64,000 nt of DNA from the NCBI GenBank assembly GCA_916613615.1, contig OU744725.1:73576280-73640279 (forward strand), written 5' to 3'. The translations under genes and the position numbers were made by a program. Each line of letters begins with the position of its first letter. Position 1 is the first letter of the stretch. Source of the DNA: Steromphala cineraria. Taxonomy: Eukaryota > Mollusca > Gastropoda > Trochida > Trochidae. This document shows, piece after piece, positions 11,036-54,573 of the stretch. A model generated the notes under the pieces. The model did no database searches. It was not told where the DNA came from and worked only from the letters and a program-made list of their open reading frames with translations.

Positions 11036-13244
11036 TAAAACAGAGGAGATTAAGCCTACTGTTTTGCCTAGAACTTGGTCGTGGGGGAATAGCTCGGGAT
11101 CTACACACCTTCAAAAACAAGCAGAGAAGATTCTTTCAGGCAGGGAACAAGACTGTTTATTCTTAAGAAAGTAATGCATCAGACAAGAAGTAAATCAATC
11201 AGACACAATAAGCCATCAAATGATAAATGAATTCATATGTAAGTTACAGTTATTGAATATAAATACAATGATACCTGAGTTAGAGAATAGATAAGTATGA
11301 TCAACATCATTGATGATGTAACAGTATAATATGAGAGTAATGGTAATTGATAATCAATAAGTATAATAAACTTAATTGTATATAACAGTATAATGCAATA
11401 GCTATTAATGAACAAAGGATGGGAGCATCTCAACAACTTCTAAATGCAGCTCACTGTGTAATAATTATGTGACAAACCGGAGCTTAACAATTTACTTAAT
11501 ACAAATGAACATTCCATTCATCTAGACAATACAAATGCATATATCGTCTTAACTTCCATATCTGTATGCCATTAATAAACATTCATAATACACCGAACCC
11601 TTAAAAAAAATACTTGCTTGAATAGTGATCCTCTTAAAACACGTGTGCAATATTAGAAGTATTATGGTAAAGTAAATAAAACGATAATTACATCTAAAGC
11701 CTTAAACAAATAATAAATATAAAACATGTCCTACTAAAATAATGTAATGATTCTTTACAATTTAATACTATTGAAAATATTAGATATATTACGGTATGGA
11801 AGGCTTTGTTTAACACTTGAACAAGGGACAACATGAATACAAATTATTGCTAGTATAATGGAGGACCTATTATAATTTTAAGTGTGAATCATTTTAGAGT
11901 TATCACGGTACGCAAGGTACAATGATAATTACATTTAAAGAACTTAAACAAAGGTTAACTCTATTGCCTGTTCTTGCTCGATTAATGGATAGAATCTTAT
12001 TTCTAGTTTATCACAGTGAAATATTAGACTTACTACGGTACAGGAAGTTCTATGATAATCCTATCTTTCAACACGATAATTTATCCAAAGTGTAACAGTG
12101 ACATTCTAACGTTTACAGAAACCTATACATGATGAACTCTGTTAATATGTGTACAGACTACCTATATTGCAGACATAATGGAATATAACAAGCGCTGTTT
12201 AATTATTTTATAGAAAGATGGATATTTATAATTGCCTGTATCTTTTGAACTATTCTAATACTTTCTACATCGCCGTGGCATCATAATAATTTGTGTACAT
12301 TCATAATAAGACATTGCCCGAATGTGCACGTTTAGCTAGGAAGATAACATTATAGTTTTGTACCCTGGAACATATGCGCTTACAGACAGGATACCTTGAA
12401 CGTAAATATATATATGAGCTTCCCGCGCTACGTGCATATTACATACACAGACATGTTACATACAATAACATGATACACAACAAAGATATGAATATGAACA
12501 TTTAAACTCTTGAACAACATTCAACACGTTGTACATTTATGTGCTTTAGCATCAAAGACACCCGACCAAGAATAAAATATACATTTTAACATAACTCTCT
12601 TCCTAAATATTTCTACATTTGAAGCAACTGTATAAACACTATTTATTAATTAAAACCATCCAATGCCTTTAAATTGCCTTACTGAATTCTTAACTAAAAA
12701 TAACATAGGTTCATTATTAAAGGCAGAAGAGTTTTAACGAGTTTCAACACAAAATAGCAAAGTGAAGTGACTTACCTTCAAAAACAAGCAGAGAAGATTC
12801 TTTCAGGCAGGGAACAAGACTGATGTTTAGAACATTTACTCGCCCCTTTATAGCCCTCATTCTCTTTGTGAATTTGAAAATATGTCACTTCTATCTACCC
12901 CTTGATAATGGATAATCTTCATTATGATTATGTTAAGTAACATTTGCTGACATCGGCCAGCGTTAAGCTCCATTGACTGTTGAAGTAAAACGCTCTTGTT
13001 GTTAAAGTGATAAGCTGTTGTTTGTCTAACTGGTCCCTCCGACAGGTTAGTTAATTCTTATCGCCTAAAAGCTGGACTTAGCGCATCGTGTCAACCTTTA
13101 TCGGAGAGAGATAACTGATAATATGCAAGCTGACTTTACACATTAAGACTTCATGGGTGAAATACTTTTAATTATAACTTTGTAATGTATAACGAAAATT
13201 ATGAAAATATTGAACTAAAATATAGCAATTTTGGCACTGTTATA
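11036..13244 (-). repeat. 3' LTR (2,209 bp)
   Basis: It matches 21853-24062 over its full length. In element orientation it starts TATAACAGTGCC and ends CTGTTTTA, not the usual TG...CA. The outer AT at 11034-11035 is also shared, so the border is uncertain by 2 nt. It carries the same internal 49-bp duplication as the other LTR (11107-11155 and 12774-12822), a TATA box at 12845-12853 and AATAAA at 11161-11156. No clear polypurine tract abuts it; a purine run lies about 35-50 nt further inside the element. Confidence 0.93.
11156..11161 (-). terminator. Poly(A) signal AATAAA in the 3' LTR
   Basis: On the minus strand AATAAA is followed with no gap by the second 49-bp copy (CAGTCTTGTTCCC...). 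Cleavage 10-30 nt downstream would fall inside that copy, making it the 3' R sequence. Confidence 0.6.
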
Positions 13245-13426: not shown

Positions 13427-13815
13427 TTATTTCAACATAACTGAAGGATCTAAAATTTGATATCGACCACCATGTACCATAAGAATATAGGCAGCGAAAG
13501 GTTGATTAAACATTTTATGTAGCTTCCGTGCTGCAAAGAAGGAAATACGGACACTATGAGGAACAGTGAGTGAGGTTTTGGTGAGAAGATTGGTGACTGT
13601 GAAGTGAGGCCAGTCGACAGTGAGAGTGGGAAAGAAATACCCTGAAATGCGGAGGTGTTCCACGGTGAAAGGAGGTTGAATATCCCAAAAGGAAGGACAC
13701 AGGCTGAGGGACAGAACGGGAATAGTTACACATTCTGGGCCAGTGGTTAGTTCTAAAACAAGACCATTGTGAGTTTGAGGATGACGTTGATAGAACGAGA
13801 AGAATAGAGGCGACA
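13427..13815 (-). CDS. Env C-terminal segment in a shifted frame
   Basis: A second frame stays open from about 13815 to the stop at 13427-13429 and overlaps the last part of the main env frame. Its translation (about 125 residues) looks protein-like, with hydrophobic and aromatic patterning (LELTTGPECVTIPVLSL, FTVEHLRISGYFFPTLTVDW). Over the same bases the main env frame becomes serine/histidine-rich and irregular after its second hydrophobic segment. This suggests that the cytoplasmic or C-terminal domain was originally continuous with env and that a one-base frameshift near 13800 separates them. A sequencing or assembly indel is equally possible. Function of this tail unknown. Confidence 0.55.
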
Positions 13816-15866
13816 GCAAGGGTGATGACTCCTAGGAGAATTGAGACATGGTAGTCCGCAAGATCCGAAACAACAAAGCCAGGACTGGGGGTAGTTTGTG
13901 CATTATAATTGAGAGTAGGTGGTTGAACTGCTTTTACTGGAGCGACCCGAGTTATCAATAGTAAGGCTGCAGAGAGTGTGCGAATTTTGTAAAACATCCA
14001 AATACACAAAATGATAGAGAGAATGGAAGTGCCTGACGCTGTGATGGCAATTATGGCATTAGTATCAGGCCAAGAACTTGGCAAGTTGATGCGCCCATCA
14101 AGCAAAGGTTCTGTCATTGACTGAAAGATTGTTTGAGTTTTCTTAGCACTTTCTGCAACCCGCTGTAGACTAAGGTGAGACTTTTGATCATTGGCCAAAA
14201 CATTAGAAATTTCGTGTGAAAAGATATTAAATTTTGGAATAGAGAAATTAACCATTTTTCTAAAGGTGGTATCGCCAGCAATACTAGAAAGAGTTGAGTC
14301 ATCAAAGAAGTGTTGGAGAAGAGCCAGATTGACAGGATGAAGTTGTGTGACCTGATGTTGAGATGAACTACATGAACCAAAAGGTGCAGGATAAAAGAAA
14401 TCTGCAGTTGAGAAAGTACAGTAGCAAGGTGTAGTAATAACACAAAAATTACAACCATTAATCACACGATGTGTTGTAGGGCAGTTGAGAGTAAGAAATG
14501 GGACTTTATAAACCAGAATATTAGAAGAGTCAATTGGGATAAGTTGAGGTGGCTGAGCTTTAGTAATATAACGGAAATTACAGAGTGATTTTATGAGATG
14601 TTTACTATTTTGAAAGAGGGCAAGGATACATGATGGTTTGGTTGAGGTTTGAAGGGTTATTCCGAAGGGACAGTGTATGACGAAATCATCACCTTTGCAG
14701 GATTCTACAGTAGAACTATCAAGGCTAATGTGATGTTTAGAGTCAGGTGAAAGGGCAAAATAAGATGGAGTTTCTAAAAGTTGGGTGGAGTGGGTGGAGG
14801 TGCTGTTCACAGGCACTGGGGCAGAGATAACTTTATACACTTGAAAAGGTTTAGCCAAAGATGATAATGGAAATTTAACGGATACATACACGTGGTCCTT
14901 CGTACGAGTAAAGATAAATTTTGCATAAGAGTAATAGAATGTTGGATTTGTTTGGAGCAATTGGAAATTCGGGTACTTATCAGATAAAAGTGATGCCAAA
15001 TGATGGATAGTTTGTTCCAAAATGTGAGGTGCAATGAGCAGGGGAGACAACTTATTCTTAGCCAAATCTAAAATGCCTAATTTCAGTTCCTCAAGCTGAT
15101 GCTCCACGGTATTTGCCTTTTGAATTTGATCAATGAGAAGGGAGGTAAGGGAGGTAAAGGTGGATTGAAGATTTCTAGCATTATTCTCTATTGCCTTGGC
15201 TGTGAACGTTATTGCATCATGATTGGCTTTGACGCCCTTCAAAGCATTCTGAAATCGTGTGTCGACTACTTTCATGAAGGAGGAAAGATGGGCTGAATGT
15301 TGCTGTAGTACATTGGATAGGTTAATGTCATGTTTGGTCAAGGCATTTATATGTTTGGCAAGCAGGTTGACGTCGTCAATTGTGGCAGTGCCAAACAGAG
15401 TTTTTGATAGGGAACCGACAAAACTAAGAACTGCTCGTTTTGAACGGCTAGATGAGGGAATACTAGATTCCGGAATTAACTTAATGATTTGTTGCCTGGT
15501 ATTATTCATTTCAGCAACACATTTGGTTTTGATGACATTAAGATGCATTTGCATTTGATGTAAAAGAGCGCATGTACCCTTGCTTTGATGACATCCGCTC
15601 ATGGTAGGAATACTTGGCACGGAGGGTAGCTTGATTTCGTACGTGTGTGTCCAATATTCCGTGGAGAAATGGGCTTGGAAGGTTGGCTGAAATACTACTC
15701 CATAGTTGAGTCTCTGCACTGGACTGGAGCCGAGGATAGGATGGGCGAGCAGAGTCATAAGCCACAGGGTAATCAAGCTCCAGGATGAACCTTTGATGAA
15801 ATGAGAAAAGAAGCCAGAGTTGACCTGGTTGAATGCTGTGGCCACAACATAAAAACAACCTAGCAC
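13554..15866 (-). CDS. env: Envelope glycoprotein, baculovirus F / errantivirus type (frame broken near its end)
   Basis: The open frame is 770 codons. A hydrophobic stretch at about residues 30-45 (LITLWLMTLLAHPILG) could be a signal peptide, which would be left after an upstream start. A furin-type site RSKR is near residue 143 and is followed at once by a hydrophobic, glycine-containing segment (AVLSFVGSLSKTLFG), the arrangement of the fusion peptide in baculovirus F proteins and insect errantivirus Env. A long heptad-rich helix region follows (about 160-270), then a cysteine-rich domain and a membrane-spanning segment near residue 620 (ITASGTSILSIILCIWMFY), with a second hydrophobic segment near 680. 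The expected role is membrane fusion as a class I-like trimer. In the genome it would be translated from a spliced mRNA. The final about 90 codons look frameshifted (see 13427-13815). Confidence 0.8.
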   Translation of the reverse strand: MLGCFYVVATAFNQVNSGFFSHFIKGSSWSLITLWLMTLLAHPILGSSPVQRLNYGVVFQPTFQAHFSTEYWTHTYEIKLPSVPSIPTMSGCHQSKGTCALLHQMQMHLNVIKTKCVAEMNNTRQQIIKLIPESSIPSSSRSKRAVLSFVGSLSKTLFGTATIDDVNLLAKHINALTKHDINLSNVLQQHSAHLSSFMKVVDTRFQNALKGVKANHDAITFTAKAIENNARNLQSTFTSLTSLLIDQIQKANTVEHQLEELKLGILDLAKNKLSPLLIAPHILEQTIHHLASLLSDKYPNFQLLQTNPTFYYSYAKFIFTRTKDHVYVSVKFPLSSLAKPFQVYKVISAPVPVNSTSTHSTQLLETPSYFALSPDSKHHISLDSSTVESCKGDDFVIHCPFGITLQTSTKPSCILALFQNSKHLIKSLCNFRYITKAQPPQLIPIDSSNILVYKVPFLTLNCPTTHRVINGCNFCVITTPCYCTFSTADFFYPAPFGSCSSSQHQVTQLHPVNLALLQHFFDDSTLSSIAGDTTFRKMVNFSIPKFNIFSHEISNVLANDQKSHLSLQRVAESAKKTQTIFQSMTEPLLDGRINLPSSWPDTNAIIAITASGTSILSIILCIWMFYKIRTLSAALLLITRVAPVKAVQPPTLNYNAQTTPSPGFVVSDLADYHVSILLGVITLAVASILLVLSTSSSNSQWSCFRTNHWPRMCNYSRSVPQPVSFLLGYSTSFHRGTPPHFRVFLSHSHCRLASLHSHQSSHQNLTHCSS

Positions 15867-15933: not shown

Positions 15934-16509
15934 TCACATCATAAATGTCATAGAGATAGCTGGATGACCCTTTGCAAATGCTCTACCGAAAAAACTTGCG
16001 TCCAAGTTTGGGCGCCTACCTGACCTAGTCCGAGACTTATGGAAATGATCAATCAGTGAAGGATCAAGATTGGAAGCAGGCTCCCAAGTAGTTTGTGAAT
16101 AGCCTAACCATTTGATTTGGTACATTTTAGTACCATTTGCCCGTTTACATCGAAGTATTTGTTCAACAGGATAGGTTTGATCATTGTGTGATGTGTCATC
16201 CTGTTGCTGAGAAGAAGATGGTATAGAGCCTGAATCAGCGATGTGTGGCTCTGGAGGTACCATCTGTGTGTTTGGTTGACTGGATTCGTCAGCAGAAGTG
16301 CTGGAAGGTGTGGCCTGTTGTGTGGCAAGAGTTGTGTTATTGTCACCAGCAGAAGTGCTAGGATTAGCAGGCTGAATTTCAGGAGTAGGAGTGTAATCTG
16401 GAAGTCTGTCATTTGGCGTACGGGCCGTGTGAGACTTGAGGCGATTGGCGTGAATGAGTGCTTTGTGCGTTTTGTGTGTTTCAGCATGTTGCAGTTTGAA
16501 AGTGTGGTT
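15934..16509 (-). CDS. Integrase tail with chromodomain, in a shifted frame
   Basis: The frame continues the integrase C-terminus (LQHAETHKTHKALIHANRLK) through a proline/serine/threonine-rich linker to a recognisable chromodomain at about 16180-16035: YPVEQILRCKRANG, then YQIKWLGYSQTTWEPASNL, then LIDHFHK. The aromatic cage positions (Y near the start, W in IKWLGY, W in TTWEP) are present. In chromoviruses this module directs integration to modified histones. It sits one base out of frame with the integrase. The switch must occur near 16505-16515, either by frameshifting or because a base was lost. The stop codon overlaps positions 15934-15936, close to the start of env at 15866. Confidence 0.75.
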   Translation of the reverse strand, partial: NHTFKLQHAETHKTHKALIHANRLKSHTARTPNDRLPDYTPTPEIQPANPSTSAGDNNTTLATQQATPSSTSADESSQPNTQMVPPEPHIADSGSIPSSSQQQDDTSHNDQTYPVEQILRCKRANGTKMYQIKWLGYSQTTWEPASNLDPSLIDHFHKSRTRSGRRPNLDASFFGRAFAKGHPAISMTFMM

Positions 16510-19500
16510 AGTTCAAGTATTGTGTAGGGACCTAACCATTTGACTGAGAGTTTGGGAGATCTACCAGGAAGGACATGAGAATTTTGCATAAGAACTAGAT
16601 CACCTACTGCAAACTGTGGATCTTTAGCCTTAAGGTCAGTGCGCTCTTTGTTTATTTCTTGGGAGATTTGCATGTTGTCCTTAGCTATTGATTTAGCCAC
16701 TTTGAGGTTGTTGAGAAGTGTTTTAAGATGAAGTTCTGCTGTTTTGCCTATTGTAGGTTTGGGAAGAAGGGTAACATCAATAGGTAGTTGCATCTCTTTG
16801 CCAAAAACAAGGTAGAATGGTGTGTACCCAGTGGAGGCACATGGTGCACTTCGCATTGACATCATTACACATGGAATAAGGTCAGCCCAATTAGATTGGT
16901 CAGAGTCACAATAAGCTCTGAGTGCCTGTTCAATAGTCCTGTTGCGCCTTTCACACATGCCATTCGTTTCAGGGTGGTATGAAGATGTCAAGTGGTGCTT
17001 AATGTTCATCAATTCACACAGGGCATTGACAAGTTTGGAGGTGAATTGCCTTCCTCTATCCGAAAGAAGAGTTTTTGGAGCACCATAGCGAGTTATCACC
17101 TGATTGAAAAGAATGTTAGCTACCTCAGTGGCCTCCTGTGTCTTCATTGCAAAGCCTTCGGTCCAACGAGAGAATGAATCGACCACGAGCAGAACATATT
17201 TGAAGCCTTCTTTTGTTTCAGGAAGAGGACCAAGAATGTCAATGTGGAGACGAGAAAATGTATCTTCAATGGGCATTGGGACCATAGGTGCGTGTTTGCC
17301 ATGAGACTGGGATTTGATTTTCTGACAGACTTCACATGACTTGATGTAATTATCAACGTCTTGGTACAAGCCTGGCCAGTGATACTTAGTGAGTAATGAT
17401 TGGAATGTAGAATCTCTTCCAAGATGGGCACCCCCTACCTTAGAATCATGATAAGCAAATAGGAGATCCTTGCGCCTGATGAGAGGTACAACTAGCTGAG
17501 TGACCTGTGGAGGTCTTGTGGCCTTAGCACCCCTGTGTTTTGCTTGAAAGATATGATATAGAATACCATCCCTAATGACATATTCCTGGGAACGACCTAC
17601 AAGACCTTTGATTTGAGCATCATTGTAGTTTGTAGGGATTTCACCTTTAGAGATATAATCTATTATGGACCTAAGATCTGGAGAATTGTACTGTTGTGTA
17701 ACCAACTGATTGTCAGCTATCTGTACGGAAGAAACCATGACTGATGGACCAGATGGAGGCGGGTCGTTTGTGTAAAACAAGTCAACTGCGATAGGGGCTG
17801 GAAGATCTGGTTCCACCTTGGAGGATGAGGATGAAGTGTTCGTTGAGCTGTTTGCGATAGAAGAGAGAGTGTTGGATGTGTCATGGTGTGAGGTGTTAGA
17901 CCTATTGTAAGACACATCAGGTGAAGAAGAAGGAACGAAGGGAGCTGCAGAAACAACCAAGACAGGTGTGTCTTTGGAGGTAGATGCTACCACTTGTGCA
18001 TATGTTCTTTTGGACGGCAGAGGAGGTGATGGTATGTCATCTGTAACAGGAACAGTGCTAGGCTCAGGATATTTAGTTCTAGAAAGTGCATCCGCATTTG
18101 TGTTTGTTTTTCCTGGCCTGTGTACAATCTCAAAATCATAATCTTGCAGCATAATGGACCATCGCCCAAGACGACCTGATACTTCCTTAATGTTTTTCAA
18201 CCAAGTAAGAGCCTTATGATCTATAAAGACTTTGAATTTGTTTCCGGCCAAATATACTCTAAATGTTTTGACTCCCTCAACTACTGCCAAACATTCTAGC
18301 TGCGTTACTCCCCAATTTTTCTCAGAAGTATGAAGTGATCTTCCTCCATAACAAATGACATGTTCCTTACCATCATCACCATGTTGCCCAAGTATGTAAC
18401 CTAAAGATGTGTTTGAAGCATCTGTTGTGAGAATGAAAGGTTTTGTAGGATCAGGATATGCAAGGATTGGAGAAGATGTCAGTTTTTGCTTTAAGAGAGT
18501 AAAGGCTTGTTGACATTTGTCAGACCAAGAAAATTTGACATCTTTCTTCAGAGTATCATACAGAGGGGATGCTATACCTGAGAAGTTGGGAACAAATTTC
18601 CTGTAGTAACTACAAAGGCCAAGAAAATGGCGAACATCGTGGACGTTCTGGGGTTGGGGAATTTGAACTACAGCTTGAATTTTGGACTGATCAACCTCAA
18701 TGCCATTTTTAGAGAAAATGTGACCTAAATATTGGACTTGTTTTGCTGCAAATTTGCATTTGCTAGGTTTTAGAGTTAAGCCAGCTTGTTTTAATTTTTG
18801 GAAAACGCATTTAAGATGGTTTAAATGTTCTGAAAAGGTTTTTGAGTAGACAATGATGTCATCTACATAAATGAGAATGTATTTCCAGTTCATCTCTTTT
18901 AGAGCTTCCGAAATTGTGCTTTGAAATGCCATTGGTGCATTTTTTAAACCAAAAGGAAGACGATTCCATTCAAAAATTCCATCGGGAGTGATGAAAGCAG
19001 ACTTATGTTTTGTTTCTGGATGCAGTGGAATTTGCCAGAAACCGCTAGCACAGTCTAGAACACTGAAAATTTTTGCATGACTTTCCCCAACTGCATCAAT
19101 GACATCTTCAAATCTAATGAGGGGAAAAAATATTGGCTTGGTTACATCATTGAGGCGTCTGTAATCTACCGCGAAACGATAAGTGTTGTCCCGTTTTTTG
19201 ACCATGACAACTGGTGAATGCCATGCAGAGGAACTGGCTTGAATAATTTTTGCATCTAACATTTCTGAAATTTGTTTGGAACACTCTTTTCTAATCTCAG
19301 CACTTTGTCTGTAAAATGGACGTCGAATGGGCCTAGCATCACCTGTTTCTATTTTATGAGAATGAAGATGAGTAACACCAAGTTCGGACCAGTTAGTAGC
19401 AAAGGCAGAATGTTGTGAATGAAGAAAGGACAGAAGTTCTTGTTTTTGAGAAGCAGATAGGTCGGAATCCGAAAGGTCAAAGGATAGGTCTGTGGGATGA

Positions 19501-19781
19501 GATTGCTTGTGATGTGTTGGTGTTTTGAATAAAGTTGTGTGAGTGTTAGTGTTATGCCTATTTTGTGAGATGGAGGAAGCATTGATGTTAGATGGCCGTG
19601 GGTGAGGTTGAGAAAGGTGTGGTTTGGTTTCAGGGTCTGGTGAATCTGGTAGCACTTCTATACTTGAGGTGTTGACCTCGGAGGCAACAGCTAGCACTCT
19701 TTTGGTATTGAGATAAATAGGTGATTTGGTTGGGTTGAGGAGGCGCATGTAAACAGGGTTTTTGGATTTGTAACTAAGCAT
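16510..19781 (-). CDS. pol: Reverse transcriptase - RNase H - integrase polyprotein
   Basis: About 1,090 codons of good frame (the frame stays open to 16104 but is out of phase beyond about 16510). The RT domain shows LDCASGFWQIPLHP, RLPFGLKNAP and the catalytic box YVDDIIVYS near residue 305. RNase H begins near FILTTDASNTSLGYILGQ. The integrase has an H-H-C-C zinc finger (HDSKVGGAHLGRD ... CEVC) and the acidic triad: D in LHIDILGP (about 848), D in LSDRGRQF (908) and E in CERRNR (944), so DD35E. All catalytic residues seen are intact. A serine/threonine-rich spacer lies between RNase H and integrase. The frame is -1 relative to protease. The first codons overlap the end of the protease frame, so the true product is presumably made by frameshifting. 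Confidence 0.93.
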
Positions 19782-20377
19782 CTACCACCTTGCAACTTAA
19801 GTCTAGAAAGCTCAGAAATTGGTTCAAGAAGGAGAATAGCACCCTGTCTATACCGAGATAGTTTAACTGGAATGTCTACTTGACATGATGGAGGAATGGT
19901 AACAGGCTTCCTGGCCCTAGCATAACCTGCGCTTGATTCAACAAGTGGAACAGAAACGAGCCCTTCCTGAATTGAGAAGGATCTGTCAGCTAGTGAGATT
20001 GTGGCTTTATAATCTGTCAAGAAGTCCATACCCAAGATGAGAGAATGATGCAGAGATTTGAAGACATAAAAAGATTGTGGAAAGAGGAGATTGCCTATAC
20101 AAACATCAAGAGAAATAGCACCTAGCACTTTATGGATCTCACCCCCTACACCTACGATTTCATGAAGGTCAGATTCATGTAAATTGTCTTCAGTGTAGCC
20201 TACTTTTCTAAGGTAGCTCATGCTGACACAAGACACTGAGGCTCCTGTATCAGCAAGGGCGGCTGTCTTCACTTGCTTTACCTTAATGAGAACAGTGTTC
20301 TTTACTAAGGGAGCCACAAGTGAGACCAAGGGTTTGTCGTGCCTGACCCCAGATGTCTGAGAGTCAGGCCCGAGTCC
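19691..20377 (-). CDS. pro: Retroviral aspartic protease, read through from gag
   Basis: The segment is in the same frame as gag, starting right after gag's UAG, with no stop until 19691. The active-site motif is ALADTGASVS, followed by the flap and hydrophobic core typical of retropepsins (SLILGMDFL as the ILG-type motif). The first methionine is at 20329, but the codons between UAG and this Met are open, which fits readthrough rather than a new start. The role would be to cut the polyproteins, with the active enzyme a homodimer. Near 19780 the sensible protein frame moves to -1 (pol). The overlap 19781-19691 has no classical X-XXY-YYZ heptamer that I can find, only an A-rich stretch (ATCCAAAAACCC). 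Confidence 0.88.
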   Translation of the reverse strand, partial: GLGPDSQTSGVRHDKPLVSLVAPLVKNTVLIKVKQVKTAALADTGASVSCVSMSYLRKVGYTEDNLHESDLHEIVGVGGEIHKVLGAISLDVCIGNLLFPQSFYVFKSLHHSLILGMDFLTDYKATISLADRSFSIQEGLVSVPLVESSAGYARARKPVTIPPSCQVDIPVKLSRYRQGAILLLEPISELSRLKLQGGRCLVTNPKTLFTCASSTQPNHLFISIPKEC

Positions 20378-20380
20378 CTA
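20341..20380 (-). promoter_or_regulatory. Stop-codon readthrough element: UAG-G, 8-nt spacer, stem-loop
   Basis: On the minus strand, gag ends CGA-TAG (20380-20378), followed by G. After an 8-nt spacer (GGACTCGG) comes GCCTGAC (20369-20363), perfectly complementary to GTCAGGC (20347-20341). The 15-nt loop holds a nested 4-bp hairpin (CAGA-CA-TCTG, 20359-20350). The UAG-G and an 8-nt spacer before a structure are the layout known for murine leukaemia virus gag-pol readthrough. The frame continues open into protease. Structure and function are inferred from sequence. Confidence 0.65.
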
Positions 20381-21832
20381 TCGGGTACCATATGCATTCT
20401 GTGAATGATAGGCTTTATAGCAGACACTGTAGTGGTGGCCTATTTTCTGACAGTATGAACATTGTGTATGCAAGTGTGGGCAAAATAAGCGATCTGAACA
20501 GCACACACCACAGCCGCGGCATCTGTCCTTGAGATGTGGTGGGACTGGCAACTGTTGTCTGTATTGACCCTGTGGTGGTCCAGGAGGCAGCTGAGTCTGA
20601 GGTGAAGGCTGGAAATGTTGAGGTGGAGGCGGAGGTGGAGGCTGGGAATGTTGAGGTGGAGGCTGGAAGTGTTGAGGTGGAGGCTGGAAGTGTTGAGGTG
20701 GCGGCTGGAAGTGTTGAGGTGGAGGCTGGAAGTGTTGAGGTGGAGGCTGGAAGTGTTGAGGTGGCGGCTGGAAATGTTGAGGTGAAGCAGCATTCTGGTG
20801 TCTCCGAGGGGGACGTTGTTGTTTCTGCTGCGGTGGGGCAGCAGCTTGGACAGCTGTCTTTTCGGTTTTGGTTAGCAGCGTGGCCACCAGCTCTGACAGA
20901 TGGTCGACCTTTGATGCAATGGTCGCTGCATTGGTACTGGCACCCGTCTGTGATTTCTCTGCCAGCTCAGCATGATGTCGCACTTGTTCCAATGTGGCTG
21001 GCTCTTTGTTGATCACCCACTGGCGCAGGTGAGGCTTCAGGCCGTTGACAGCGATGGCGACAATCACGCTTACTGGCAGTTGGTGGCTGCGAGTAGCATG
21101 CTGGAGTCTTGTGATGTACCTAGAGATAGTTTCGTCCGACTCCTGCGACATTTGCAGCAAATTGACATCAAAGGTATTAGTGTTTTCAAACCTGGAGTGG
21201 AAGGCTGTTTTGATGAGGTCCAGGTTCTGCTTCGTAGGCTCTGGCAGATCCTGAAACCACAGTTTTGCCGACTCCTCCAGGTAGAATGGCAACAGAAGAC
21301 ACTGTCTGGCGGTATTGTAGTTGAGGAGTCCTACAAAATTTTGAAACTCCTGCCACCAGGAAACAGCATCCTCCTGTCCTGTGAATGGACGAAGCTTGAT
21401 CTGTGGCATCGCCATATCCAGTAAATGGTCAGCTGTCTGGATGGGCAGGGCAGGTGGGACAGCTGTAGATGATGTTGATGTTGAAGCAGTTGTTGATGTT
21501 GATGTTGATGCTGTTGTCGTTGATGTCGATGCTGTTGAAGCAGTTGTTGATGTTGATGCTGTTGCAGCTGATGCCGTTGATGTCGATGCTGTTGAAGCAG
21601 TTGTTGATGTTGATGCTGTTGCAGCTGATGCCGTTGATGTCGATGCTGTTGAAGCAGTTGTTGATGTCGTAGTTGACGCTGTTGAAGATGGTGATACTGG
21701 AGCTGTTGGTATTGTCAGGGTTGGCGTTCCTGGCAACGTTGAGACTTGTTCCCCAATCAAACTGGTCAGCAGCGACCTTGGATCATGCCCTCGGAGTCTC
21801 TGCTTGTAGTTGGTAGGTGTGGCACCGGTCAT
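20378..21832 (-). CDS. gag: Gag polyprotein (capsid and zinc knuckle)
   Basis: This frame has 484 codons. The ATG lies 18 nt after the primer-binding site start, so the leader between LTR and gag is minimal. Domains: a low-complexity Ser/Thr/Ala run (about residues 45-125) encoded by a GTTGAT-type microsatellite; a capsid domain (about 145-310; PFTGQEDAVSWWQEFQNF, LWFQDLPEPTKQNL) typical of Ty3/gypsy Gag; a block of about eight QHFQPPP repeats (about 350-405); and a CCHC knuckle near the end (CSYCQKIGHHYSVC, spacing CX2CX4HX4C), with an additional Cys-rich run just before it. The role is particle assembly and RNA packaging. It ends at UAG in the readthrough context. Confidence 0.92.
   Translation of the reverse strand: MTGATPTNYKQRLRGHDPRSLLTSLIGEQVSTLPGTPTLTIPTAPVSPSSTASTTTSTTASTASTSTASAATASTSTTASTASTSTASAATASTSTTASTASTSTTTASTSTSTTASTSTSSTAVPPALPIQTADHLLDMAMPQIKLRPFTGQEDAVSWWQEFQNFVGLLNYNTARQCLLLPFYLEESAKLWFQDLPEPTKQNLDLIKTAFHSRFENTNTFDVNLLQMSQESDETISRYITRLQHATRSHQLPVSVIVAIAVNGLKPHLRQWVINKEPATLEQVRHHAELAEKSQTGASTNAATIASKVDHLSELVATLLTKTEKTAVQAAAPPQQKQQRPPRRHQNAASPQHFQPPPQHFQPPPQHFQPPPQHFQPPPQHFQPPPQHFQPPPQHSQPPPPPPPQHFQPSPQTQLPPGPPQGQYRQQLPVPPHLKDRCRGCGVCCSDRLFCPHLHTQCSYCQKIGHHYSVCYKAYHSQNAYGTR
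20611..20785. repeat. Minisatellite inside gag (QHFQPPP units, 24 bp and 21 bp)
   Basis: Tandem copies of 'gttgaggtggaggctggaa' and variants give seven or eight in-frame peptide repeats on the minus strand. Unit length keeps the frame, so copy number can vary without breaking gag. Confidence 0.85.
21466..21680. repeat. Trinucleotide-type microsatellite/minisatellite inside gag N-terminus
   Basis: The plus strand reads gttgatgttgatgctg-type repeats arranged in longer duplicated blocks (gatgtcgatgctgttgaagc appears repeatedly). On the coding strand it yields the Ser/Thr/Ala-rich run of Gag. Confidence 0.85.
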
Positions 21833-21835
21833 CTA

Positions 21836-21850
21836 GGATCACTCTCACCA
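21836..21850 (-). promoter_or_regulatory. Primer-binding site (TGGTGAGAGTGATCC)
   Basis: It starts with TGG 2 nt after the LTR end (or 0 nt if the shared AT belongs to the LTR), complementary to a tRNA 3' end finishing CCA. I could not assign the tRNA. Confidence 0.65.
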
Positions 21851-21923
21851 ATTAAAACAGAGGAGATTAAGCCTACTGTTTCGCCTAGAACTTGGTCGTG
21901 GGGGAATAGCTCGGGATCTACAC

Positions 21924-21972
21924 ACCTTCAAAAACAAGCAGAGAAGATTCTTTCAGGCAGGGAACAAGACTG
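21924..21972 (-). repeat. 49-bp LTR duplication, copy 2 (3' R / splice acceptor)
   Basis: Identical to 23592-23640 over 49 bp. On the minus strand it follows AATAAA directly and ends in a pyrimidine-rich CTTCTCTGCTTGTTTTTGAA(G), then GTGTGTAG, so its own 3' end is a plausible splice acceptor. The same pair exists in the other LTR. Confidence 0.9.
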
Positions 21973-23593
21973 TTTATTCTTAAGAAAGTAATGCATCAGA
22001 CAAGAAGTAAATCAATCAGACACAATAAGCCATCAAATGATAAATGAATTCATATGTAAGTTACAGTTATTGAATATAAATACAATGATACCTGAGTTAG
22101 AGAATAGATAAGTATGATCAACATCATTGATGATGTAACAGTATAATATGAGAGTAATGGTAATTGATAATCAATAAGTATAATAAACTTAATTGTATAT
22201 AACAGTATAATGCAATAGCTATTAATGAACAAAGGATGGGAGCATCTCAACAACTTCTAAATGCAGCTCACTGTGTAATAATTATGTGACAAACCGGAGC
22301 TTAACAATTTACTTAATACAAATGAACATTCCATTCATCTAGACAATACAAATGCATATATCGTCTTAACTTCCATATCTGTATGCCATTAATAAACATT
22401 CATAATACACCGAACCCTTAAATAAAAATACTTGCTTGAATAGTGATCCTCTTAAAACACGTGTGCAATATTAGAAGTATTATGGTAAAGTAAATAAAAC
22501 GATAATTACATCTAAAGCCTTAAACAAATAATAAATATAAAACATGTCCTACTAAAATAATGTAATGATTCTTTACAATTTAATACTATTGAAAATATTA
22601 GATATATTACGGTATGGAAGGCTTTGTTTAACACTTGAACAAGGGACAACATGAATACAAATTATTGCTAGAATAATGGAGGACCTATTATAATTTTAAG
22701 TGTGAATCATTTTAGAGTTATCACGGTACGCAAGGTACAATGATAATTACATTTAAAGAACTTAAACAAAGGTTAACTCTATTGCCTGTTCTTGCTCGAT
22801 TAATGGATAGAATCTTATTTCTAGTTTATCACAGTGAAATATTAGACTTACTACGGTACAGGAAGTTCTATGATAATCCTATCTTTCAACACGATAATTT
22901 ATCCAAAGTGTAACAGTGACATTCTAACGTTTACAGAAACCTATACATGATGAACTCTGTTAATATGTGTACAGACTACCTATATTGCAGACATAATGGA
23001 ATATAACAAGCGCTGTTTAATTATTTTATAGAAAGATGGATATTTATAATTGCCTGTATCTTTTGAACTATTCTAATACTTTCTACATCGCCGTGGCATC
23101 ATAATAATTTGTGTACATTCATAATAAGACATTGCCCGAATGTGCACGTTTAGCTAGGAAGATAACATTATAGTTTTGTACCCTGGAACATATGCGCTTA
23201 CAGACAGGATACCTTGAACGTAAATATATATATGAGCTTCCCGCGCTACGTGCATATTACATACACAGACATGTTACATACAATAACATGATACACAACA
23301 AAGATATGAATATGAACATTTAAACTCTTGAACAACATTCAACACGTTGTACATTTATGTGCTTTAGCATCCACGACACCCGACCAAGAATAAAATATAC
23401 ATTTTAACATAACTCTCTTCCTAAATATTTCTACATTTGAAGCAACTGTATAAACACTATTTATTAATTAAAACCATCCAATGCCTTTAAATTGCCTTAC
23501 TGAATTCTTAACTAAAAATAACATAGGTTCATTATTAAAGGCAGAAGAGTTTAAACGAGTTTCAACACAAAATAGCAAAGTGAAGTGACTTAC
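21926..23593 (-). other. Putative 1,668-nt intron inside the LTR
   Basis: Donor GAAG|GTAAGT (exon ends at 23594) and acceptor TTTTTGAAG|GTGTG (exon resumes at 21925). Removal would join the 46-nt first exon to U5 and make the 5' end of the RNA identical to the copy-2/U5 end of the LTR. The poly(A) signal at 21978-21973 lies inside this intron. Inferred from sequence only. Confidence 0.5.
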
Positions 23594-23640
23594 CTTCAAA
23601 AACAAGCAGAGAAGATTCTTTCAGGCAGGGAACAAGACTG
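23592..23640 (-). repeat. 49-bp LTR duplication, copy 1 (putative first exon)
   Basis: On the minus strand it begins 1 nt before the predicted start site and ends 2 nt past the exon/GT border of a consensus donor. It equals 21924-21972 exactly. Confidence 0.9.
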
Positions 23641-23671
23641 ATGTTTAGAACATTTACTCGCCCCTTTATAG
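23636..23671 (-). promoter_or_regulatory. LTR core promoter: TATA box and initiator
   Basis: The minus strand reads CTATAAAGG at 23671-23663 and TCAGTC (arthropod/metazoan-type initiator) at 23641-23636. The A of the initiator is about 31 nt downstream of the TATA box, the standard distance. The same pair is in the 3' LTR (12853-12845 and 12823-12818). Confidence 0.7.
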
Positions 23672-24062
23672 CCCTCATTCTCTTTGTGAATTTGAAAATA
23701 TGTCACTTCTATCTACCCCTTGATAATGGATAATCTTCATTATGATTATGTTAAGTAACATTTGCTGACATCGGCCAGCGTTAAGCTCCATTGACTGTTG
23801 AAGTAAAACGCTCTTGTTGTTAAAGTGATAAGCTGTTGTTTGTCCAACTGGTCCCTCCGACAGGTTAGTTAATTCTTATCGCCTAAAAGCTGGACTTAGC
23901 GCATCGTGTCAACCTTTATCGGAGAGAGATAACTGATAATATGCAAGCTGACTTTACACATTAAGACTTCATGGGTGAAATACTTTTAATTATAACTTTG
24001 TAATGTATAACAAAAATTATGAAAATATTGAACTAAAATATAGCAATTTTGGCACTGTTATA

Positions 24063-37139: not shown

Positions 37140-37254
37140 AAAGGTCCCCTGTTTAGCACAATCATTACCAGGCACGCTTCGTAAGATTCAAAGAGGAGCT
37201 TTGGACTTTCTTGCCAAGACGAAAGATTTTATTCAAAGTAAATATTCTGGTTGT

Positions 37255-38250
37255 CAATCCTCCACATCCACCTTCCCTGGGCCATCTCCCAACTTCAACC
37301 CTCCACATCCGCCTTCCCTCGGCCATCTCCCGACTTCAACCCTCCACATCCGGCTTCCCTCGGCCATCTCCCTACTTCAACCCTCCACATCCGCCTTCCC
37401 TCGGCCATCTCCCAACTTCAACCCTCCACATCCGCCTTCCCTGGGCCATCTCCAAACTTCAACCCTCCACATCCGCCTTCCCTCGGCCATCTCCCGACTT
37501 CAACCCTCCACATCCGCCTTCCCTCGGCCATCTCCCAACTTCAACCCTCCACATCCGCCTTCCCTTGGCCATCTCCCGACTTCAACCCTCCACATCCGCC
37601 ACTTCAACCCTCCACATCCGCCTTCCCTAGGCCATCTCCCGACTTCAACCCTCCACATCCGCCTTCCCTCGGCCATCTCCCGACTTCAACCCTCCACATC
37701 CGCCTTCCCTCGGCCATCTCCCGACTTCAACCCTCCACATCCGCCTTCCCTCGGCCATCTCCCGACTTCAACCCTCCACATCCGCCTTCCCTCGGCCATC
37801 TCCCAACTTCAACCCTCCACATCCGCCTTCCCTCGGCCATCTCCCGACTTCAACCCTCCACATCCGCCACTTCAACCCTCCATATCCGCCTTCCCTAGGC
37901 CATCTCCCGACTTCAACCCTCCACATCCGCCTTCCCTCGGCCATCTCCCGACTTCAACCCTCCACATCCGCCTTCCCTCGGCCATCTCCCGACTTCAACC
38001 CTCCACATCCGCCTTCCCTCGGCCATTTCCCGACTTCAACCCTCCACATCCGCCTTCCCTCGGCCATCCCCCGACTTCAACCCTCCACATCCGCCTTCCC
38101 TCGGCCATCTCCCAACTTCAACCCTCCACATCCGCCTTCCCTCGGCCATCTCCCGACTTCAACCCTCCACATCCGCCTTCCCTCGGCCATCTCCCAACTT
38201 CAACCCTCCACATCCGCCTTCCCTCGGCCATCTCCCAACGTCAACCACCT
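37255..38250. repeat. Minisatellite, 41-bp unit, about 24 copies
   Basis: The unit is cttcaaccctccacatccgc plus cttccctcggccatctcccga, with few variants (tcggc/tgggc, cccga/cccaa). Two copies are shortened to about 18 bp (near 37600 and 37870). Because 41 is not a multiple of 3, every frame is open and each spells the same mixture of peptides, so long open frames across it are not evidence of a gene. Confidence 0.95.
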
Positions 38251-42000: not shown

Positions 42001-44059
42001 CCTCCTGCCCATCAGCAAAGGGGATATTGAACCTTGATCAACAGCGACATTATGCCACTGTCTGGTGACATTATTGGTCCTGTAATTGTCCATTTCTGTC
42101 TGTCAAGTACGTGGGGGCCTTATCATCGAAATGACATCAGCAGCTGATATTGTAGGGAACAAGACAACTTGACCATTGATTTGAAGTCTGTTTGTCACAA
42201 TCGTTCTCTTATCAGTGTAAAATGCCGTTCGGAATCTGTATTTTTTTCAGGTGTGAAAAGCGGAAATTTTCCCCTGCAAAATGATGACACAGGTGGTGTA
42301 CCAAATCGAGGACGATCTTTGAATGTTCCAGCTGACCGGCATCGATTTTTTGTCAAGAATCGGTGGACAGATTCACATGGAAATGTTTGAAACTCGCAAA
42401 ATCCCAACAACCCTGGAGTTCCATTCCCATGACCTTACTCTTCTTTTCAGTTTGACAAGCGCAGTGTATCAACAATTTGACTGACCTTCAAAATTGTGTG
42501 TGCTTGTAAAGGACTTGTGTGGTGTGAATGAACATGCACTTTACGATCAATGCAAGTCATGCTCACTGTTTTCATTACCATGTGTATGTCTGCTCAAAAT
42601 GGTCTAGTGCTGCCATTCGAACCAACCCTCACTATGGTGTTCCACAGCAATATCTTGGAGGGGGACATTATGACTGTCTGTCTCTTGAAGTCTGGCATGG
42701 TCTTCACTAACCACTACCTGCGTGACCGTCCATGGAAGATCTTGTGGGCGTAGCCAATCAAGGGCGGCAGGTATTTGCACAGCAGTGCACCAAGAGGGTT
42801 TCGCAGTTCACCCTTAGTCACCTTTGCCTATTGGTTGTTTCTTGATAGCTGAATGAACTTTGAATCGCATTTTAAAAAAAAATTATCGCACAGTAGAGGA
42901 ACTTTCCTTGGTTCATGATTTGGGAGTTGTTGTTCCTCATGTACGCTTACACCTGCTGTTGTTTTCGGATGAAATGGTATTGTTAAGCACTACCATTTAA
43001 GGTTTATGGGATGGTTTGGAAACGATGTAGAGCTATTGTTCAAAATGGGAATTAACTGTAAATACTGAAGTGATAGTGCCATATGCTCTGTAGATCATCA
43101 CACAGGGGCATGTACAGCTTAAATACAGCGTTAGAAAGACATACATACTCATAGACCCTACCCTAATACTATATATAAGTAAAGGGATGTAACGGAATGA
43201 TCGGACAACACTCAAACAAAGTCAAATTAGAAATCAAAAAATATTTTTTTGGAAAACATCAAGACAACCAATCGAAACCAAAATGATTTCCCTACAAAAC
43301 AAGCTATCGACTGTTTAAATCGGTTTATTATTACAAAAGTTACAGGCGACGACATCCCTAAAATCGCTACCTCCAGATTTTTATGCCAAAATCCCCACTC
43401 GCGAAAAACAACCAAAACTTACCTTTTAAGGACGTTAATTAATTTACGAAAAAACGACAACACCTTGTACATAATAACCAAGTGTGGGGAAGAAATAGCC
43501 TAACCAGGCCAGAAACTCCCCCCTTGTACATCATAACCAAGTGTGGGGAAGAAATAGCCTAACCAAGCCAGAATATCCCCCCTTGTACATCATAACCAAG
43601 GGTGGGGAAGAAATAGCCTAACCAGGCCAGAATCTCCCCCCTTGTACATCATAACCAAGTGTGTGGAAGAAATAGCCTAACCAGGCCAGAATCTCCCCCT
43701 TGTACATCATAACCAAGTGTGGGGAAGAAATAGCCTAACCAGACAAGAATCTCCCCCTTGTACATCATAACCAAGTGTGGGGAAAAATAGCCTAACCAGG
43801 CCAGAATAACCCCCCTTGTACATCATAACCAAGTGTGGGGAAGAAATAGCCTAGCTAGGCCAGAATCTCCCCTTTGTACATCATAACCAAGTGTGGGGAA
43901 GAAATAGCCTAGCTAGGCCAGAATCTCCCCTTTGTACATCATAACCAAAGGTGGGGAAGAAATAGCCTAACCAGGCCAGAATCTCCCCTTTGTACATCAT
44001 AACCAAGTGTGGGGAAGAAATAGCCTAGCTAGGCCAGAATCTCCCCTTTGTACATCATA

Positions 44060-44131
44060 AGATGTCCTGCATATCATTCAATAAATTCCATTCATGCTAT
44101 GAAATAACAAGCCATACAATATCTTGCATAT
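44060..44131. repeat. Spacer element in the satellite, representative of 8 copies
   Basis: A 72-76-bp sequence unlike the monomer (agatgtcctgcatatcattc ... ttccattcatgctatgaaat ... gccatacaatatcttgcata) sits between monomers. Further copies start at about 44641, 45861, 47664, 50862, 52256, 55951 and 57754. They are always entered after 'ttgtacatcata' and left through 'tgaaatagcc', so each replaces the middle of a monomer. Confidence 0.95.
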
Positions 44132-47100
44132 GAAATAGCCTAACCAGGCCAGAAACTCCCACTTGTACATCATAACCAAGTGTGGGGAAGAAATAGCCTA
44201 ACCAGACAAGAATCTCCCCCTTGTACATCATAACCAAGTGTGGGGAAGAAATAGCCTAACCAGGCCAGAATCTCCCCCTTGTACATCATAACCAAAGGTG
44301 GGGAAGAAATAGCCTAACCAGGCCAGAATCTCCCCCTTGTACATCATAACCAAGTGTGGGGAAGAAATAGCCTAACCAGGCCAGAATATCCCCCTTGTAC
44401 ATCATAACCAAGTGTGGGGAAGAAATAGCCTAACCAGGCCAGAATATCCCCCCTTGTACATCATAACCAAAGGTGGGGAAGAATTAGCCTAACCAGGCCA
44501 GAATCTCCCCCTTGTACATCATAACCAAGTGTGGGGAAGAAATAGCCTAGCTAGGCCAGAATCTCCCCTTTGTACATCATAACCAAGTGTGGGGAAGAAA
44601 TAGCCAAGCCAGGCCAGAATATCCCCCCTTGTACATCATAAGATGTCCTGCATATCATTCAATAAATTCCATTCATGCTATGAAATAACAAGCCATACAA
44701 TATCTTGCATATGAAATAGCCTAACCAGGCCAGAATCTCCCTCCATGTACATCATAACAAAGGATGGGGAAGAAATAGCCTAACCAGGCTAGAATCTCCC
44801 TCCATGTACATCATAACCAAGGGTGGGGAAGAAATAGCCTAACCAGGCCAGGCACTCTCCCTTGTACATCATAACCAAGTGTGGGAAGAAATAGCCTAGC
44901 TAGGCCAGAATCCCCCCCTTGTACATCATAACTAAGTGTGGGGAAGAAATAGCCTAACCAGGCCAGAATCTCCCCCTTTCTACATCATAACCAAGTGTGG
45001 GGAAGAAATAGTCTAACCAGGCCAGAATCTCCCCCTTGTACATCATAACCAAGTGTGGGGAAGAAATAGCCTAACCAGACAAGAATCTCCCCCCTTGTAC
45101 ATCATAACCAAGTGTGGGGAAGAAATAGCCTAACCAGGCCAGAATCTCCCCCTTGTACATCATTACCAAGTGTGGGGAAGAAATAGCCTAACCAGGCCAG
45201 AATCTCCCCCTTGTACATCATAACCAAGTGTGGGGAAGAAATAGCCTAACCAGGCCAGAATCTCCCCCTTGTACATCATTACCAAGTGTGGGGAAGAAAT
45301 AGCCTAACCAGGCCAGAATCTCCCACTTGTACATCATAACCAAGTGTGGGGAAGAAATAGCCTAACCAGGCCAGAATCTCCCCCTTGTACATCATAACCA
45401 AGGGTGGGGAAGAAATAGCCTAACCAGGCCAGAATCTCCCACTTGTACATCATAACCAAGTGTGGGGAAGAAATAGCCCAACCAGACAAGAATGTCCCCC
45501 TTGTACATCATAACCAAGTGTGGGGAAGAAATAGCCTAACCAGACAAGAATCTCCCCCTTGTACATCATAACCAAGTGTGGGGAAGAAATAGCCTAACCA
45601 GGCCAGAATCTCCCCCTTGTACATCATAACCAATGTGGGGAAGAAATAGCCTAACCAGACAAGAATCTCCCCCTTGTACATCATAACCAAGTGTGGGGAA
45701 GAAATAGCCTAACCAGGCCAGAATAACCCCCCTTGTACATCATAACCAAAGGTGGGGAAGAAATAGGCTAACCAGGCCAGAATCTCCCCCTTGTACATCA
45801 TAACCAAGTGTGGGGAAGAAATAGCCTAGCTAGGCCAGAATCTCCCCCTTGTACATCATAAGATGTCCTGCATATCATGCAATACAATTCCATTCATGCT
45901 ATGAAATAACAAGCCATACAATATCTTGCATATGAAATAGCCTAACCAAGCCAGAAACTCCCCCTTGTACATCATAACCAAGTGTGGGGAAGAAATAGCC
46001 TAACCAGACAAGAATCTCCCTCCATGTACATCATAACCAAGGGTGGGGAAGAAATAGCCTAACCAGGCCAGGCACTCTCCCTTGTACATCATAACCAAGT
46101 GTGGGAAGAAATAGCCTAGCTAGGCCAGAATCTCCCCCTTGTACATCATAACAAAGTGTGGGGAAGAAATAGCCTAACCAGGCCAGAATCTCCCCCCTTC
46201 TACATCATAACCAAGTGTGGGGAAGAAATAGTCTAACCAGGCCAGAATCTCCCCCTTGTACATCATAACCAAGTGTGGGGAAGAAATAGCCTAACCAGAC
46301 AAGAATCTCCCCCTTGTTCATCATAACCAAGTGTGGGGAAGAAATAGCCTAACCAGGCCAGAATCTCCCCCTTGTACATCATAACCAAGGGTGGGGAAGA
46401 AATAGCCTAACCAGGCCAGAATCTCCCCCCTTGTACATCATAACCAAGGATGGGGAAGAAATAGCCCAACCAGGCCAGAATCTCCCCTTTGTACATCATA
46501 ACCAAGTGTGGGGAAGAAATAACCTAACCAGACAAGAATCTCCCCCTTGTACATCATAACCAAGTGTGGGGAAGAAATAGCCTAACCAGGCCAGAATCTC
46601 CCACTTGTACATCATAACCAAGGGTGGGGAAGAAATAGCCTAACCAGGCCAGAATCTCCCCCCTTGTACATCATAACCAAGGATGGGGAAAAAATAGCCC
46701 AACCAGGCCAGAATCTCCCCTTTGTACATCATTACCAAGTGTGGGGAAGAAATAACCTAACCAGACAAGAATCTCCCCCTTGTACATCATAACCAAATGT
46801 GGGGAAGACATAGGCGAACCAGACAAGAATCTCCCCCTTGTACATCATAACCAAGTGTGGGGAAAAAATAGCCTAACCAGGCCAGAATTCCCCCCTTGTA
46901 CATCATAACAAAGTGTGGGGAAGAAATAGCCTAACCATGCCAGAATCTCCCCCCTTCTACATCATAACCAAGTATGGGGAAGAAATAGTCTAACCAGGCC
47001 AGAATCTCCCCCTTGTACATCATAACCAAGTGTGGGGAAGAAATAGCCTAACCAGACAAGAATCTCCCCCTTGTACATCATAACCAAGTGTGGGGAAGAA

Positions 47101-53100: not shown

Positions 53101-54573
53101 AGACAAGAATCTCCCCCTTATACATCATAACCAAGGATGGGGAAGAAATAGCCCAACCAGGCCAGAATCTCCCCTTTGTACATCATAACCAAGTGTGGGG
53201 AAGAAATAACCTAACCAGACAAGAATCTCCCCCTTGTACATCATAACCAAGTGTGGGGAAGAAATAGCCGAACCAGACAAGAATCTCCCCCTTGTACATC
53301 ATAACCAAGTGTGGGGAAGAAATAGCCGAACCAGACAAGAATCTCCCCCTTGTACATCATAACCAAGTGTGGGGAAGAAATAGCCTATCCAGGCCAGAAT
53401 CCCCCCCCCCCCCCCTTGTACATCATAACCAAGTTTTGGGAAGAAATAGCCAAGCCAGGCCAGAATATGCCACCTTGTACATCATAACCAAGTGTGGGTA
53501 AGAAATAGCCTAACCAGGCCAGAATCTCCCCCTTGTACATCATAACCAAGTGTGGGGAAGAAATAGCCAAGCCAGGCCAGAATCTTCCCCTTGTACATCA
53601 TAACCAAGTGTGGGGAAGAAATAGCTTAACCAGGCCAGAATCGCCCTTCATGTACATCATAACCAAGTGTGGGGTAGAAATAGCCTAACCAGGCCAGAAT
53701 CTCCCCCTTGTACATCATAACCAAGTGTGGGGAAGAAATAGCCTAACCAGACAAGAAACTCCCTCCATGTACATCATAAGAAATGGTGGGGAAGAAATAG
53801 CCTAGCCAGGCCAGAATATCCCCCCTTGTACATCATAACCAAGTGTGGGGAAGAAATAGCCTAGCTAGGCCAGAATATCCCCCTTGTAAACATAACCAAG
53901 GCTGGGGAAGAAATAGCCTAGCTAGCCCAGAATCTCCCCTTTGCACATCATAACCAAGTGTGGGGAAGAAATAGCCAAGCCAGGCCAGAATCTCCCCCCT
54001 TTTACATCATAACCAAGTGTGGGGAAGAAATAGTCTAACCAGGCCAGAATCCCCCCCTTGTACATCATAACCAAGTGTGGGGAAGAAATAGCCTAACCAG
54101 ACAAGAATCTCCCCCTTGTACATCATAACCAAGTGTGGGGAAGAAATAGCCTAGCTAGCTCAGAATCTCCCACTTGTACATCATAACCAAGTGTGGGGAA
54201 GAAATAGCCTAGCTAGCTCAGAATCTCCCACTTGTACATCATAACCAAGGGTGGGGAAGAAATAGCCTAACCAGGCCAGAATCTCCCCCCTTGTACATCA
54301 TAACCAAGGATGGGGAAGAAATAGCCTAACCAGGCCAGAATCTCCCCCTTATACATCATAACCAAGGATGGGGAAGAAATAGCCCAACCAGGCCAGAATC
54401 TCCCCTTTGTACATCATAACCAAGTGTGGGGAAGAAATAACCTAACCAGACAAGAATCTCCCCCTTGTACATCATAACCAAGTGTGGGGAAGAAATAGCC
54501 AAGCCAGACAAGAATCTCCCCCTTGTACATCATAACCAAGTGTGGGGAAGAAATAGCCTATCCAGGCCAGAAT

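Follow-up and report, generated by a model that had tools for sequence, protein, structure and literature searches.

Long terminal repeat (LTR) retroelements need a repeat at both ends of their RNA, must avoid a poly(A) signal transcribed at the 5' end and normally lose introns on reverse transcription. The element described here lies in a window of 64,000 nucleotides (nt) from the gastropod Steromphala cineraria (contig OU744725.1, positions 73,576,280 to 73,640,279; the window is the whole stretch analysed, and coordinates refer to it). It is a Ty3/gypsy (Metaviridae) element whose LTR holds two copies of R separated by a predicted intron, and its group likely replicates through a spliced-R scheme, in which removal of that intron recreates the terminal repeat.

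In foamy viruses the splice acceptors lie outside the LTR and the genomic RNA is unspliced; to our knowledge, neither these viruses nor Rous sarcoma virus (RSV), mouse mammary tumour virus (MMTV) and human T-cell leukaemia virus type 1 (HTLV-1) have an acceptor or a second R inside the LTR. Introns are kept through retrotransposition in Penelope-like elements, which belong to a different reverse transcriptase (RT) class and make no strand transfer between terminal R repeats. The insect endogenous retroviruses (Errantivirus: gypsy, 17.6, 297) resemble the window element in combining a Ty3/gypsy pol with a baculovirus-F-type env, and ATAT target duplications are found in 297 and 17.6; the window element differs in having a chromodomain, and we know of no LTR intron or duplicated R in gypsy, 17.6 or 297. 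Prototype foamy virus, like the window element as judged from its sequence, has a splice donor inside R upstream of the poly(A) signal; binding of U1 at the foamy virus donor silences polyadenylation in the 5' LTR, this suppression is described as independent of splicing, and R is one 193-nt block (available part of PMC3694450). The window element differs from foamy viruses in having an acceptor and a second R copy inside the LTR, so that R occurs twice with an intron between and not as a single uninterrupted unit. AATAAA of RSV, MMTV and HTLV-1 lies in U3, upstream of R (PMC3694450, same part), and RSV and MMTV, with their short R preceded by AATAAA, resemble the window element; however, their signal and that of HTLV-1 is upstream of the start and absent from the RNA 5' end, whereas here it would be transcribed and then spliced out. 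The chicken endogenous retrovirus OVEX1 has direct repeats near both ends and yields full-length and singly spliced RNA, its intron running from the leader (nt 97) to 5766, before ORF3; unlike the window element, it is not described as having an intron inside the LTR in the available part of the article (PMC2717909). Searches of the open-licence literature, at the level of titles and abstract openings and with most subscription journals outside it, gave no description of an LTR intron that recreates R.

Each LTR of the window element contains a 49-bp duplication, exact in all four places (Table 1). Copy 1 starts 30 nt from the start of TATAAA, the A of an ATCAGTC initiator lying one base further on, at 31 nt, and GTAAGT follows the 47th base of the copy (GAAG/GTAAGT). 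Copy 2 has AATAAA directly before it, is a pyrimidine-rich tract with AG at its end, and continues as GAAG/GTGTGTAG into U5; the predicted splice junction, 23594^21925, matches the sequence. A first-pass annotation, made from the letters of the window alone, had reported this duplication, placed copy 1 at an initiator about 31 nt after TATA and before a consensus donor, placed copy 2 between AATAAA and a pyrimidine-rich acceptor, and given the same junction; all of these details were recovered. The two bases of the repeat that lie past the splice point (GT) are shared because U5 starts with GT; in a sister family, F3, U5 starts with AT and the repeat stops exactly at the splice point. The window LTR has no further exact repeat of at least 16 nt, and in all four family representatives tested the LTR region contains AGGTRAGT a single time, where copy 1 ends, which excludes a chance origin of the repeat and donor. 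GTAAGT follows copy 1 at 18/18 copy-1 sites of the window's family, F0 (intronless LTRs excluded).

The layout U3, R (copy 1), intron, R (copy 2), U5, with transcription predicted to start at copy 1, suggests the following cycle. Splicing would take the intron, and with it the poly(A) signal and copy 2, out of the 5' LTR transcript, leaving an RNA that begins with R-U5; at the 3' end, polyadenylation just past AATAAA would keep U3, copy 1, the intron and copy 2, leaving an RNA that ends in R. Strong-stop complementary DNA (cDNA) ends at the cap, and its R part is derived from exon 1. The U5-R cDNA made on the spliced 5' end would move to copy 2 and restore the whole LTR, intron included, copy 2 being rewritten from copy 1 in every cycle. 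Reverse transcription of spliced RNA would explain why the duplication spans the interval from predicted cap site to splice site; the rival explanations do not. One of these puts the true start at copy 2, with AATAAA just upstream as in RSV and MMTV, and takes copy 1 and its TATA box for a second promoter produced by duplication. A signal directly before a short R does resemble that known class (PMC3694450, available part), but the window copy has no TATAAA about 30 nt before copy 2, the donor of copy 1 would be left without a role and the two copies would not be homogenised, and we hold this explanation to be highly improbable.

The same design was found in sister families, in a survey that covers one genome, that of the window. 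Queries with U3 plus copy 1 and with the env protein gave at least 50 and at least 63 matches, respectively, scoring being confined to the best candidates; the regions examined comprise 20 of F0, ten pairs of element-end pieces of other families and seven 3' pieces. Families F1, F3 and F4, with env identities to the window's of 64-71%, 56% and 35-36%, keep the architecture with an R of their own (45 nt ending in CCAG, 39 nt ending in CTAG and 28 nt ending in CTAG, respectively), in the shared order TATA at -30/-31, R, GTRAGT, 0.6-1.4 kb, AATAAA, R, AG and U5. In all four families the repeat starts 30-31 nt downstream of TATA, in three of them exactly at the initiator A and in F0 one base before the predicted border; GTAAGT or GTGAGT follows the exon in every family, and the end of AATAAA ranges from one base inside copy 2 (F1, F3) to three bases before it. 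Rough chance estimates are 5e-11 for the donors and 1e-8 for the poly(A) signals. A scan for the whole arrangement matched 20 of 49 element pieces (276,247 bases), the failing pieces including LTRs with point changes within the repeat, and gave no match on the reverse strand of the same pieces or on either strand of two window stretches taken as controls. With up to five mismatches allowed, 12 of 22 F0 pieces carry both copies, 6 the donor-type copy only and 1 the acceptor-type copy only; the remaining 3 carry four intronless LTRs, treated below.

The LTRs themselves have little in common: at an E threshold of 0.01, BLAST between the four families gave a single match, of 30 nt, shared by F1 and F3 (E 0.009), and no R-to-R alignment between families exceeded shuffles by more than about 2.2 standard deviations. 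F3 shares 70 nt of U5 (BLAST) with a further family, F5 (C7a, C38a; env 56%), whose LTRs are intronless, with contiguous U3, TATA box, 40-nt R ending in TAG, and U5. The intronless F5 query had 27 genome matches: four are the C7a and C38a LTRs, eight cover U3 and R and stop at 158-160 (six at 160), five start at position 121 and ten start later. Positions 121-160 are the 40 nt from an A 31 nt after TATA to TAG, that is, R occurs twice (1-160 / 121-231), and the U3-R and R-U5 matches start about 0.8 and 1.0 kb apart on one strand (C39:20100369/20101128 and C40:60750472/60751483). The same R at the predicted cap site and next to a poly(A) signal, each time at a splice site, is present in four families and, by coordinates, in F5. 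If the 1.6 kb had come in as a mobile element, with the 49-bp repeat as the target-site duplication, a direct repeat bracketing the insert would be accounted for, but different inserts with different repeats (28-49 nt) would each have had to strike the predicted cap site, start with GTRAGT and end at AATAAA, which is scarcely credible; insertion with a long target duplication was rejected as contradicted by the architecture of the other families. Origin by tandem duplication of U3 is likewise unsupported, no convincing similarity between U3 and intron being found in the four families. Close relatives differ in intron length, some copies having a repeated segment of about 120-150 bp inside the intron (L021-L024, around LTR nt 1442-1565).

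If copy 2 is rewritten from the spliced 5' cDNA, changes in R should appear in both copies. In F3, one element (C40a) has CTTCTTTCTC and another (C4a) CTTGTTTCTC in both copies; in F4, C3b has TTTTCCC and C6b TTTTTCC in both; and an F1 piece (L067) has ATATTCTG in both. Diverged F4 elements behave similarly: both copies share TTTACCC and AAATAG in C7, ACCC and AAACAG in C39 (with one private difference), and AGTAACG and TTTACCC in C6 (two sites differing). A first test on 18 LTRs, picked by hand with one per element and including 4 of the 12 two-copy F0 pieces, counted 13 mismatches against 28.5 on exchange (P 5e-5). Among all 31 two-copy LTRs examined, some of which are two ends of one element and hence not independent, copies 1 and 2 differ by 20 mismatches, where exchange of copies within families gives 39.2 on average, and none of 50,000 exchanges reaches the observed value; F4 alone gives 5 against 20.8 (P 4e-5). 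Families with different R and the joint variation of the two copies support the spliced-R interpretation proposed in the first-pass annotation. They also bear on a conventional long R, in which an unspliced RNA includes copy 1, the 1.7 kb and copy 2, strand transfer makes use of this whole stretch and the duplication is a passive relic. Such an R needs no splicing before packaging, fits the positions of TATA and AATAAA, and agrees with the F0 copies, which lack joint variation; but copy 2 would not be rewritten from copy 1, the joint variation of F4 and the GTRAGT donor at the repeat border of four families would be left unexplained, the leader would gain 24-47 more upstream ATGs, and a passive relic would not turn up again and again at identical functional borders while R differs from family to family. 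We regard a long R as most unlikely.

Translation provides independent support for the predicted splicing. In six elements of four families the predicted spliced leader is 127-183 nt long with 0-1 upstream ATG, and the introns hold 24-47 ATGs; if gag is taken to start at the ATG of its longest frame, that ATG is the first of the spliced leader in five of the six. These counts would also suit splicing that serves gag translation and avoidance of 5' polyadenylation only, the unspliced RNA being the usual template and spliced templates accidental homogenisers, and a donor in R does control 5' polyadenylation in foamy virus (PMC3694450, available part). Unspliced cDNA, however, would end in copy 1 and the RNA in copy 2, and misaligned transfer should therefore sometimes give LTRs with the intron twice; three R copies were found in none of the 44 pieces searched for R. 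LTRs with the 1.67-kb segment twice were what the first-pass annotation had expected of an unspliced template, and their absence from these pieces agrees with its proposal. An unspliced template of this kind has, in our estimate, a very low probability.

Intronless LTRs are frequent, which the first-pass annotation had not predicted. F0 has four in three pieces (L034, L039 twice, L040), with GAAG/GTGTGTAG contiguous and, in L040, one extra T in R; the two in L039 are only about 1.4 kb apart on one strand, possibly as a short internally deleted element. Among 32 matches to the U3-R-intron start of F1, 9 enter the intron, 12 stop exactly at the repeat end (4 of these, examined by sequence, are exact R/U5 junctions), another 9 match copy 2 and share their contigs with the intron-bearing LTRs, and the last 2 are fragments; the corresponding 39 matches of F3 comprise 13 that continue into the intron, 4 that stop exactly at the R end (known by match coordinates), 9 that stop inside R, 11 copy-2 matches and 2 fragments. 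The intron is missing from both LTRs in C44a, C7a and C38a, and from the 5' LTR only in C3a and C35a. Both LTRs of C35a carry GTGTGAGC in U5, a variant absent from the other F1 LTRs examined, and its presence in the two suggests that the pair came from one reverse transcription. Apparent untemplated bases at the cap in the 5' LTR of C3a were set aside as evidence, similar letters preceding its copy 2. Intronless F1 LTRs measure about 0.5 kb against 1.9 kb for intron-bearing ones, and the intronless LTRs examined have no AATAAA next to R. If R cDNA were transferred to copy 1 rather than copy 2, neither LTR would keep the intron; if synthesis of plus-strand strong-stop DNA jumped from one copy to the other, the 5' LTR alone would lose it. 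An intronless 3' LTR without AATAAA would be a dead end, which would explain the persistence of the intron.

Several observations weigh against the spliced-R scheme. The 3' LTR bears the same donor and acceptor as the 5' LTR, yet it must stay unspliced; cap-proximal exon definition is one candidate cause of splicing at one end and polyadenylation at the other. A structure like that of foamy viruses is another possibility (PMC3694450, available part). The joint-variation signal rests on F4: F1 (0 mismatches against 1.6, P 0.20) and F3 (1 against 3.0, P 0.17) are consistent with it and have too few variants, and F0, the window's family, has no joint variation (14 against 13.8, P 1.0), because its older diverged copies carry private changes. 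The F1 element keeps one upstream ATG in its spliced leader, F0 has AAG as its acceptor, where the other families have the stronger CAG or TAG, and the intron-bearing loci of F5 are known from match coordinates alone. Intronless LTRs could result from the spliced-R cycle, but deletion between direct repeats gives the same junction, so they are no proof. Against generality, a distant env-bearing family (L061; env 27%) lacks the design in its 789-bp LTR; the arrangement therefore arose within, or was lost from, the wider env-bearing group. Related elements without the pairing of duplication with start and donor were what the first-pass annotation had named as refuting its proposal: the pairing is kept in F1, F3, F4 and, by coordinates, F5, and is absent from this distant family. 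No R copies were found in one 3' piece with env 56% (L066), and L062-L064 and L066, whose LTRs are not delimited, show no direct repeat of at least 14 nt; in L065, also not delimited, the only repeats are spaced about 160 nt apart.

On balance it is likely that an old, probably molluscan, env-bearing Ty3/gypsy lineage replicates via a spliced R, the intron surviving by recopying from the 3' LTR and the splice removing the 5' poly(A) signal and upstream ATGs. If so, one design answers the needs of the end repeat, the 5' poly(A) signal and intron loss together: terminal redundancy for first-strand transfer would arise only after the host spliceosome has acted, making it a helper in building the replication template; an intron would be retained through retrotransposition; and the 5' poly(A) signal would be hidden in a way beyond the three retroviral ways and the U1-based foamy way treated in the available part of PMC3694450. 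The element would also be a natural test of splicing against polyadenylation between near-identical sequences. The sequence signature can be used in searches of other genomes, and repeat annotation could miss the design, since, within a family, an LTR with the intron is several times as long as one without it.

The proposed mode of terminal repeat formation is the new feature of this retroelement, which by protein family is an ordinary Ty3/gypsy element with gag, pol, chromodomain and F-type env (Table 1). The order protease, RT, RNase H, integrase between two LTRs is that of Metaviridae, and a chromodomain (PF00385) follows the integrase as in chromoviruses, in a frame that overlaps the pol end. 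The two LTRs differ by 8 substitutions and one single-base indel, and ATAT target duplications bracket the element. Most of the best 120 of 3693 pol relatives have RT, RNase H and integrase domains, the best match being Haliotis rufescens (61%); of 15 env relatives with an organism name, 14 are molluscan (6 Haliotis among them) and one is from Daphnia.

Table 1. Features of the element within the 64,000-nt window
Feature	Position	Strand	Basis or remark
5' LTR, 2210 bp	24062-21853	minus	pairs with 13244-11036; ATAT at both element ends
U3 with promoter	23641..24062	minus	LTR start up to copy 1 start
TATAAA	23670-23665	minus	starts 30 nt upstream of repeat
Exact 49-bp repeat, 5' LTR	23640-23592, 21972-21924	minus	sequence
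R copy 1 = exon 1, 47 nt	23594..23640	minus	predicted start at A, 23639; spacing same in three more families
Splice donor GTAAGT (predicted)	23588..23593	minus	sequence
LTR intron (predicted), 1668 nt, 45 ATGs, 39% T	21926..23593	minus	sequence
Poly(A) signal AATAAA adjoining copy 2	21978-21973	minus	sequence
R copy 2 = intron 3' end, pyrimidine tract and AG acceptor	21926..21972	minus	sequence
U5, start of exon 2	21853..21925	minus	sequence
Putative primer binding site TGGTGAGAGTG, 2 nt past LTR	21840..21850	minus	sequence only
gag	20378..21832	minus	PF03732; its ATG is the first ATG of the 140-nt spliced leader
Protease	19694..20377	minus	PF13975/PF08284; gag frame continued past one TAG
pol: RT, RNase H, integrase	16107..19781	minus	PF00078, PF17917, PF17921, PF00665
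Chromodomain reading frame	15937..16512	minus	PF00385; frame overlaps pol end
env-like, baculovirus F type	13557..15866	minus	PF12259, E 1.5e-17; C-terminal tail out of frame here
3' LTR, 2209 bp, with same intron and both R copies	13244-11036	minus	LTR pairing
Exact 49-bp repeat, 3' LTR	12822-12774, 11155-11107	minus	sequence
R copy 1 of 3' LTR	12776..12822	minus	sequence
R copy 2 of 3' LTR	11109..11155	minus	predicted poly(A) region

The gag frame ends in a single TAG (20380-20378), past which the protease follows without a frame change; this stop is a candidate for readthrough like that of murine leukaemia virus. The C-terminal tail of env (13831-13427) is in a frame other than env and the chromodomain (16512-15937) in one other than pol, and given these shifts the window copy may be defective. 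Gene models of Haliotis cracherodii and Pecten maximus (P0121, P0137) fuse the N-terminal part of gag straight to env and so point to a subgenomic env RNA whose splicing starts inside gag. Scans of IMG/VR found no relative of the window element, and a scan of prokaryote genomes found 12 distant contigs, probably contaminants, with no useful LTR on self-comparison, which were left out of all counts. Elsewhere in the window are a minisatellite of 41-bp units (37254-38246; periods of 268 and 309 bp also fit) and a satellite array of about 17 kb (43463-60710) with a 58-bp unit, for which 116 and 233 bp also fit.
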